Assembly: GCA_021773835.1 (NCBI GenBank)
Contig: JAJFJQ010000073.1
Coordinates: 372,001 to 436,000, forward strand
Reading direction: 5' to 3'
Source of the DNA: Gammaproteobacteria bacterium
GTDB lineage: Bacteria; Pseudomonadota; Gammaproteobacteria; Ga0077536
DNA length: 64,000 bases
The notes beneath the pieces were generated by a model. That model did no database searches. It was not told the DNA's origin and worked only from the letters and a program-made list of their open reading frames with translations. A program made the position numbers and the translations under genes. Of this stretch, positions 4,549 through 45,975 are shown in pieces (within the stretch, counting starts at the first letter, position 1; each line of letters starts with the position of its first letter).

Positions 4549-5343
4549 TCACTCGCCCTTGAACGTCGGCTCTTCTTTTGCCAGATAGGCGCGGACCGCT
4601 TCAGCCATATCCTGCGTGCCGCGGGTCAATAGATTTTGATCCGCATCCATATGCATGATGCTCTGATCTAAGGCGCCGGCGATTTGGTTGATACTGCGTT
4701 TGATCATCTGCGCGCCAATAGGGGGTTTGTTGGCATATAAAGTGGCGAACTCCCGCGTCCGCGTCATGAGCTGATCTTCGGCAACGACCTCATCGAGCAG
4801 ACCCCATTCTAGTAGGGCTGGCGCGGCGACCAACTCGCCGCCGACGACAAGACGTTTCGCTCGCGCCGGCCCTACTAAATGAACGCATAGCGGCAGGCTA
4901 TGCCACATGAGATTCATGCCAAGATCAACCTCGGGGTAGCGCATGACACAGGTGGTCGAGCCGATGCGGAAATCGAGCGCCGTTGGAATACAGGCACCGC
5001 CGCCCATGGCGGCGCCGTTCCACGCAGCAACAGTGATTTGGTCCATATTATGGAGTGCGGTGATCGCTCGTGCGCCGATGCGGTTACGCCGCCGCCGCAG
5101 GAGCAAGGGCCCGGTAAATTCCGAATTGGGATCGGTAAGATCGAATCCGGAGCTGAAATGTTTGCCGGCGCCGGTAAAGATAACGACACGCGTATCGATA
5201 TCGTCGCGAAACGAGAGCGCTGCGTGCTCAATTTCGGTCAAAATCGCATAGTTCAACGCATTTGCCTTGTGCGGGCGATTGAACGTAACGGTGGCGATGG
5301 AGCCCTCTCGGGCGACAGTAAGATGCTGGTAATCCATGGTCAT
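4549..5343 (-). CDS. Crotonase-superfamily protein (enoyl-CoA hydratase/isomerase-like)
   Basis: The 264-residue protein has the crotonase fold landmarks FNRPHKANALN, TGAGKHFSSGFDL (first oxyanion-hole strand) and AAMGGGA (second oxyanion-hole strand). The position of the first hydratase glutamate (GGGxE) is cysteine here (GGGAC), while the second (YPE) is kept. Simple syn-hydration is therefore doubtful; isomerase, lyase or hydrolase activity is possible. I chose ATG 5343; a second ATG at 5337 is equally possible and neither has a clear ribosome site. It is divergent from the LLM gene at 5502. Confidence 0.85.
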   Translation of the reverse strand: MTMDYQHLTVAREGSIATVTFNRPHKANALNYAILTEIEHAALSFRDDIDTRVVIFTGAGKHFSSGFDLTDPNSEFTGPLLLRRRRNRIGARAITALHNMDQITVAAWNGAAMGGGACIPTALDFRIGSTTCVMRYPEVDLGMNLMWHSLPLCVHLVGPARAKRLVVGGELVAAPALLEWGLLDEVVAEDQLMTRTREFATLYANKPPIGAQMIKRSINQIAGALDQSIMHMDADQNLLTRGTQDMAEAVRAYLAKEEPTFKGE

Positions 5344-44868: not shown

Positions 44869-45975
44869 TTAGCGATCAGGTGTATTGCGCGCCGACGGGT
44901 AGTCGTCTATCCCGAGTTCTTTGCGGTAGCCTTCGCTACCGGCCAAAAAGACGCCTTCTAGTGGGATGCCAATTGCATTCGCTGCGCGATCGTTGGTGCT
45001 GAAATTCGCCGCAATCGCTGCGGCTTCGACGAGTCCGGCCGAGCCCATGCATTCAAGCAGCGCCGTTCTAGCTGGTCCAAGCGCAGAGTTGTCGGGACCA
45101 CAGACTGCATCCGTGAACCGCAGCAGGACATCACCGTGTTCAACGCCGCTATCGAGATTTGAATCGATAGTGGCGGCCAAATTAACTGAGATATTTTTTG
45201 CTTCGGCGCTCGCACGGAGCATCCATACGTGTGACGTGGTTCAGTAAAAACATTGATTGATTGCAGAAACCCGGGCGGCAACGAGTTCGACCTGCGGCCG
45301 GCTTATGCTCGGGTCTAGGGTGAAGACTGGGTTCATGAACTCTTCAAGCAAAATATATTGGGAGCCCCCGTTGCGGATCAGCCCCTTTGCCTCCTCAGGT
45401 ACGAGGCTCAACGAGCGGTAGATAAACGGTGCGGCTTGAGGGTCGTTGCTGCCATAAGTGTCGATGGCTTCGTCGCCACCGCGGCGTCCGCCCGGGATAC
45501 TTTGAACCCATGCGCCTTCGTCTTTTGCCGCAGCCGGGCGTTTTCGCGTTGGCTCACCGGCTTGCGGCTCGGGCAGCGCCCGGGAGCGCACGCCAATGCC
45601 CCGCGCAAATACGTCTAAGGCGCTCGCTCGCGCCACAATACCCACCGTTTCGGTATATTCGGTGTCGGTGAGACCTGCAGCAATTGCCTCATCGAAAAAA
45701 CTGCGGTCGAGGTCATTGGTGGAAACTGCGACTTGTCGGGCGACCTTACGTGCCGCCTCGGGCAGATCAGCTGCTGTAACGTCGTCACTGCTGTCCCCGT
45801 CCAGTGGATCTTGCAAGCCTTCGGCACAGCGTGCGTCGCGGGCCTCTGCGACGATGGCGCAACGTTGGGCAGCGTTCCACCAGGTGCCTGGTGCGGCAAA
45901 GGATTCAAGTGCGGCGGTGTGGGCCTCGACGATGGCGTTTCTAACTGGGAATTCGAAATCATCGTATAGCGCCAT
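44869..45975 (-). CDS. AhpD/carboxymuconolactone decarboxylase-family selenoprotein (in-frame UGA at 45241-45243)
   Basis: Two same-frame stretches are joined by one UGA. Upstream of it the protein ends VELVAARVSAINQCFY; after it comes TTSHVWMLRASAE. The UGA is residue 245 and completes CxxUxxxH (C242, U245, H249), exactly the AhpD CxxCxxxH redox motif with Sec for the second Cys. Without the UGA the core motif would be split across two proteins and make no sense. The full product is 368 residues: an N-terminal AhpD-like half (WWNAAQRCAIVAEARDARC) and a C-terminal half with the redox site. AhpD-type enzymes reduce peroxides or protein disulfides. ATG 45975 follows GGAG at good spacing; an upstream start at 46011 is less likely. 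The SECIS-like hairpin at 45205-45224 supports this. Selenoprotein genes (selA, selB, selC, selD) are not in the window. Confidence 0.85.
45205..45224 (-). promoter_or_regulatory. Candidate bacterial SECIS hairpin
   Basis: Read on the minus-strand mRNA, starting 17 nt after the UGA: GG, a bulged A, UGCUC, loop CGUGC, GAGCG, CC. The stem pairs GG with CC and UGCUC with GAGCG (one U-G pair). The loop lies about 25-29 nt after the UGA and has G as its second base, which fits the loose bacterial SECIS rule (loop within about 16-37 nt, a G among the first loop bases, short stem). Found by eye, not folded by a program. Confidence 0.6.

Follow-up and report, generated by a model that had tools for sequence, protein, structure and literature searches.

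The active site of AhpD is described as a relay of Glu118, Cys130, His132, Cys133 and His137 in the protein of M. tuberculosis and of Glu36, Cys48, Tyr50, Cys51 and His55 in PA0269 of P. aeruginosa (PMC3141380), with identical spacing in both (Glu, then Cys at +12, His or Tyr at +2, Cys at +1 and His at +4). AhpD-like selenoproteins with a CxxU motif are on record as the families AhpD-like 1 and AhpD-like 2 (PMC2398784), and a CxxU AhpD-like selenoprotein is given under TIGR01926 in a 2026 review (PMC13188914). Table 1 of the same review lists the NCBIfam family NF041238 (AhpD_rel_CFYUT, "alkylhydroperoxidase-related (seleno)protein"), also with CxxU, in its predicted-with-high-confidence part and cites Zhang et al. 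2005 (PMC13188914). The corresponding entry of the 2005 Sargasso Sea selenoproteome study is "hypothetical protein 1", represented by four CxxU sequences and presented there without functional evidence (PMC1088965). For every cluster that study demanded two or more Cys homologs, and its table row for hypothetical protein 1 reads 4, 7, 0 and 5 (given here without column headings); cluster rule and table together imply that Cys homologs of this protein exist (PMC1088965). Within the open-licence literature that was searched we found no functional study of the NF041238 family, and its identifier occurred there in the 2026 review only (PMC13188914).

The locus of the present study lies in a 64-kb window, by which we mean the whole stretch of DNA that was analysed, and comprises the following features:

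45975-44869, minus strand: predicted AhpD-related selenoprotein gene (NF041238), ATG 45975 to TAA 44869, 368 residues including Sec245
45288-45229, minus strand: AhpD core codons E230, C242, Y244, U245 and H249, the putative proton-relay residues
45246-45244, minus strand: Tyr244 codon UAC directly before the UGA, UAC in 19/19 copies
45243-45241, minus strand: UGA within the frame, occupying the second-Cys place of CxxC and predicted to encode selenocysteine (U245)
45223-45205, minus strand: predicted bacterial SECIS-like hairpin, from the consensus fold and pair counts of 19 homologs

An ORF listing with translation table 11 gives two separate ORFs at this place, an upstream piece at 46011-45241 (minus strand; 256 aa with an upstream GTG as start, 244 aa if ATG 45975 is the start) and a downstream piece at 45222-44869 (minus strand; 117 aa), a break that an earlier note on this DNA had anticipated for ordinary annotation. 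The same note had claimed that the two adjacent ORFs are one minus-strand frame split only by the UGA, and the translation of 45975-44869 bears this out, with the TGA at 45243-45241 as the single internal stop and TAA as the terminator. The joined translation reads C242-F-Y-U245-T-T-S-H249 around the UGA, which agrees exactly with the proposed position at the second Cys of a CxxCxxxH motif (C242, U245, H249) and includes the CFY-U/C-T motif of the NF041238 name (C242 F Y U245 T). Against NF041238 the joined protein scored 352 bits (cut-off 175) over model positions 1-356 of 357; the upstream piece alone matched positions 1-238 and the downstream piece alone positions 246-356, which are adjacent parts of the model and confirm that the sequence on both sides of the UGA belongs to one family. 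Because the pieces match these two parts and the TGA has an identical codon position in each of the 19 copies described below, the split of the frame is not due to chance. The two short genes are really one gene, in which UGA is most likely read as selenocysteine. Gene prediction with TGA as a stop would cut it in two, and the correct reading restores a whole redox protein.

The window gene thus belongs to an already named family and to a kind of protein recognised since 2005. It shares with NF041238 the length, the CFYUT motif and Sec at the second Cys, and no defining difference was found; its genome has three TGA copies. The long CxxU form pointed out in the earlier note is therefore real, but it is not a new variant, being NF041238 and traced by the 2026 review to the 2005 study (PMC13188914). 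New here are local facts only, namely three TGA copies in one genome, the lack of a Cys form among the copies found in the order and, for a related genus, the linkage of the gene to selA. The sole Pfam match was CMD (PF02627), at 31.7 bits for the joined protein against a cut-off of 23; the upstream piece reached 20.5 bits, below that cut-off, and the Pfam scan of the downstream piece gave no match. The joined protein scored 43.2 bits against TIGR01926 (cut-off 81.8) and 14.7 bits against classical AhpD (TIGR00777, cut-off 191.95), below the cut-off in each case. With the peroxidase-related enzymes of TIGR01926 it shares the C-terminal AhpD core (solved relatives 6k40, 3c1l, 2pfx, 2oyo and 2prr), but these five solved chains comprise 188-197 residues, whereas the window protein has about 180 extra N-terminal residues.

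Glu230, Cys242, Tyr244, U245 and His249 are invariant in 19/19 aligned rows, and their spacing is identical to that of the AhpD relay. By relay spacing the UGA falls at the place of Cys133 of M. tuberculosis AhpD and of Cys51 of PA0269 (2o4d, 165 residues), which both have Cys where the window protein has a predicted Sec. In AhpD it is Cys133, not Cys130, that attacks the peroxide. A profile of the C-terminal half retrieved the solved single-domain AhpD-like structures 6k40 (E 2.2e-12) and 3c1l (E 4.1e-11), and a Cys of each is aligned to the UGA column. Weaker relatives with a CxxC...H motif were found in the window genome (L015, L016, L017) and at locus L027, and the fourth weak hit of the same search, L018, had no such motif. 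Homologs with Cys at the UGA column, which the earlier note had proposed to look for, are thus present.

Homologs were collected with NF041238 at a threshold of E<=1e-20, and only candidates from a loose first look were scored. The taxonomic family yielded 19 copies in 13 of 36 genomes, and the order-level search covered the same 36 genomes; in the samples of the class (369 genomes) and the phylum (398 genomes) a single genome matched, in both cases the window genome. Identity of the homologs to the window protein ranges from 32 to 62%. Each of the 19 copies, one of them (L042) cut by a contig end, contains exactly one internal TGA, always at the same codon, and no other stop. Three of these genes, that of the window and two more, lie above the cut-off in the window genome itself, all with TGA at this codon. 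A full-length Cys form of NF041238 was not found in the searched genomes (369 of the class, 36 of the family and order, 398 of the phylum), and an exchange of Sec and Cys within the full-length family is therefore not seen among them. A pattern search for related loci gave one locus in genome contigs, coding for a CxxC protein of 193 residues, and none in viral contigs; its motif-spanning peptide patterns miss TGA forms because they had C in place of U.

From the UGA onward, 60 bases align without gaps across the 19 copies. The consensus fold is a hairpin of five core pairs; its stem begins 19 nt and its loop of 5 nt begins 24 nt downstream of the UGA. For the window gene this corresponds to a core stem of 45221-45217 with 45211-45207, possible lower pairs out to 45223/45205 and the apical loop CGUGC at 45216-45212, likewise with a gap of 24 nt between UGA and loop. 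The loop is CGUGC in nine copies, CGUGA in eight, and CGGGU and CGGGC in one each. With its position just 3' of the UGA and a small apical loop containing G, the predicted hairpin agrees with the description of SECIS-like elements, for which a small apical loop with a guanosine is given (PMC1088965). Taken as seven pairs over the 17 distinct rows, it has 85.7% of its cells paired (shuffled mean 78.1) and a covariation score of 0.309 (shuffled 0.201), values reached by none of 500 shuffles in either case, and slid versions were lower (at best 53.8% paired and a covariation of 0.120). Two of five covariation measures did not exceed the shuffles, namely pairs changed on both sides (364/500 as high) and further pair types (500/500). 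Columns 27 and 33, the third base of the Leu codon and that of the second codon after it, form C-G in 11 copies and U-A in the other 8 and are never mixed; a single change on the tree suffices for the switch. The pair 24-36 is G-C in nine copies, A-U in six, G-U in two and broken in two. The sister copies L013 and L037 differ at this pair, G-C to A-U, which is most simply explained by a change independent of the one that gave A-U in genus g278. Being short, the hairpin is not stable in prediction: folds of single sequences over a 51-base piece differ among themselves and often from the consensus. From codon +8 to codon +12 downstream of the UGA, synonymous codons agree at a rate of 0.571 as against 0.362 for the whole gene (16 non-redundant copies). 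The UAC that directly precedes the UGA in all copies compares with UAC in 63/143 of the other Tyr codons of these genes; the naive probability of this (about 2e-7) is too extreme, because the rows are related.

All four genes for selenocysteine synthesis and insertion whose presence the earlier note had made a point of checking occur in the window genome, which is 98.18% complete and comprises 6.14 Mb in 74 contigs. On contig C47, selA (431451-432824, 599 bits) and selB (432851-434740, 421 bits), both over cut-off, are directly followed by tRNA-Sec (selC, at 434844; called by ARAGORN and Rfam), and selD was found with 294.8 bits, also over cut-off. A second Rfam match to tRNA-Sec (C26; 49.3 bits, gathering score 47) is a tRNA-Ser according to ARAGORN. 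The selD match lies inside an ORF of 798 aa (L010:133-2529, contig C55), the first part of which resembles, by eye, an NADH dehydrogenase-like flavoprotein and the last part a SelD with Cys; it is probably a representative of the known Ndh-SelD fusion, a type already on record (PMC2398784). Among the family genomes selA is present in 13/13 carriers of the gene, but its co-occurrence with the gene is weak support when taken alone, because 18/23 non-carriers also have selA. More telling is the situation in genus g278, where five of six genomes carry the gene and all five have it immediately 5' of selA and in the same orientation, with 78-83 bases between the model matches; in the ORF maps of this genus a crotonase precedes the gene and a selB-like gene, assigned from its start sequence only, follows selA.

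Taken together, the frame at 45975-44869 very probably encodes an NF041238 selenoprotein, the UGA of which would be read as selenocysteine by means of SelB and a short hairpin and the C-terminal domain of which is of the AhpD redox type. This is the interpretation already given in the earlier note, which had named as objections a genome lacking selB and selC, homologs lacking Cys or Sec at this column, and a sequencing error turning UGC or UGU into UGA; none of them was encountered. TGC and TGT are only one base away from TGA, so that a nonsense mutation in a pseudogene or a sequencing error could have produced the stop from a Cys codon. An error is untenable because 19/19 related copies in 13 genomes carry the TGA, and a pseudogene is contradicted by the same conserved codon, including the three paralogs of the window genome, by the absence of any other stop inside any copy, and by coding constraint downstream in the copies compared. 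Differences 3' of the TGA are commonest at third codon positions in 9/9 copy pairs, as they are 5' of it; for the window copy the downstream differences at the three codon positions are 0.358, 0.341 and 0.618 against L031 and 0.125, 0.167 and 0.417 against L042. Such a third-position bias would not be expected of a dead 3' remnant. The ratio dN/dS is below 1 on both sides of the TGA in 4/6 pairs, those for which both sides were computable, the window copy not being among them and dS lying near or above saturation in several. On the conserved TGA and this downstream constraint we reject both the pseudogene and the error, whose probability we regard as negligible.

A UGA acting as a true stop would leave two proteins, one of 244 residues and one of 117 residues restarting at 45222. 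Both pieces are ORFs with possible start codons, and 8/16 non-redundant copies have ATG or GTG at the place of the restart, but the other eight have CTA, CTG, ATC or GTA there. The active-site motif and the NF041238 model run across the UGA, and termination would part C242 from H249; Sec machinery and hairpin are present besides. A full-length protein would also result if UGA were read as Trp, as in a code 4-like genetic code, or by plain leaky readthrough. However, TGA terminates genes of NF041238 itself, for example the L013 copy of the same genome, tRNA-Sec and SelB exist, the homologous residue is Cys, and the hairpin fits the insertion of Sec. Both proposals are rejected on these grounds; the stop with restart appears very improbable and decoding as Trp or by leakage still less probable. 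Sequence comparison supports the insertion of selenocysteine well.

Comparison of sequences supplies the frame, the family, the machinery, the conserved UGA, the hairpin and the relay residues, and from these we infer the actual insertion of Sec and, further, peroxidase or disulfide-reductase activity, substrate and reductant. Guided by the short stem-loop that lies just downstream in the mRNA, SelB with Sec-tRNA(Sec) would decode the UGA at 45243-45241 as selenocysteine, and the C-terminal AhpD-type redox domain would thereby have this residue where CxxC has its second Cys. The selenolate of U245 could then attack a hydroperoxide (or a disulfide), C242 would resolve the intermediate as a selenenylsulfide, with E230, Y244 and H249 presumably relaying protons, and the protein would be re-reduced by a thiol of the cell or by a lipoyl donor. 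The most likely function is that of a selenol peroxidase or a disulfide oxidoreductase.

As to the N-terminal half, the description in the earlier note of a long form with two halves holds for the length of 368 residues, but tandem AhpD halves are not established. An hhalign comparison of the two halves was non-significant (probability 0.8%, E 0.069, 39 columns only), and the N-terminal half matched AhpD 6k40 weakly (E 0.63) over the last part of that structure (residues 124-188), its weak matches being confined to the last helices. An AlphaFold2 model from the window sequence alone was unusable (pLDDT 33.5). At a guess, this half may have arisen by duplication and then decayed, which would resemble the situation in human Sestrin2; that protein is AhpD-like, and only one of its two halves is catalytic (PMC4674687). 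The layout with one active half is the arrangement suggested by the wording "two-half", and the likeness is one of layout; the catalytic half of Sestrin2 is N-terminal, whereas the AhpD redox domain of the window protein is C-terminal.

Concrete handles on function are offered by the selA-linked arrangement together with the multi-copy, Sec-only pattern. In 5/5 stretches of genus g278 (L045, L046, L049, L050, L051) the string of genes is adjoined by the crotonase and a double-length acyl-CoA dehydrogenase, followed by genes resembling xanthine dehydrogenase or 4-hydroxybenzoyl-CoA reductase, three of them in four stretches and one in the shorter L046. A model scan of L049, the sole stretch scanned, identified the crotonase (NF005073), the acyl-CoA dehydrogenase, and FAD and molybdopterin subunits; the third gene of that last set codes for 158 aa. 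A crotonase of one similarity cluster occurs at 10/19 loci within the surrounding 3 to 16 kb, directly upstream in all five g278 loci, divergent and adjoining at the window copy, and in genome G392 likewise divergent but separated by a small ORF. A close relative of the g278 crotonase with about 78% identity lies 2-4 kb from the second copy of the window genome and from a copy in G391. As a functional link this neighbourhood is only a weak hint, because crotonase matches are numerous (27 in G399 and 34 in the window genome, four of the latter in the window) and the window crotonase shares only about 34% identity with the g278 enzyme. The four matches in the 64-kb window are at C71:376555, 383304, 402959 and 418143 (window positions 4555, 11304, 30959 and 46143). 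The occurrence in the order in Sec form only, the three copies in some genomes and the crotonase-selA-selB-like string of g278 are the grounds for a further reading, in our view an unlikely one, that the protein is a principal client of the Sec apparatus and acts as a redox partner in acyl-CoA catabolism, perhaps by removing hydroperoxides formed there, with a UGA context (the UAC in front and the hairpin behind) kept beyond the needs of the protein.

Further along the minus strand the window contains two more genes of note:

44805-44233, minus strand: HD-domain gene (PF01966), 63 bases after the stop of the selenoprotein gene
41992-40682, minus strand: molybdopterin oxidoreductase of the sulfite-oxidase type (Oxidored_molyb and Mo-co_dimer)

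The HD-domain gene scored 37.9 bits against TIGR03276 (PhnZ-like oxygenases), under the cut-off of 214.6, and had no match at E<=1e-8 in the stretches of the other loci, those of L060 and L039 being uninformative in this respect as they end at or near the gene. Next to the molybdopterin oxidoreductase, further along this strand, lies the gene of a small protein that carries a CGSCH motif (40701-40312; motif recognised by eye) and is possibly its cytochrome.
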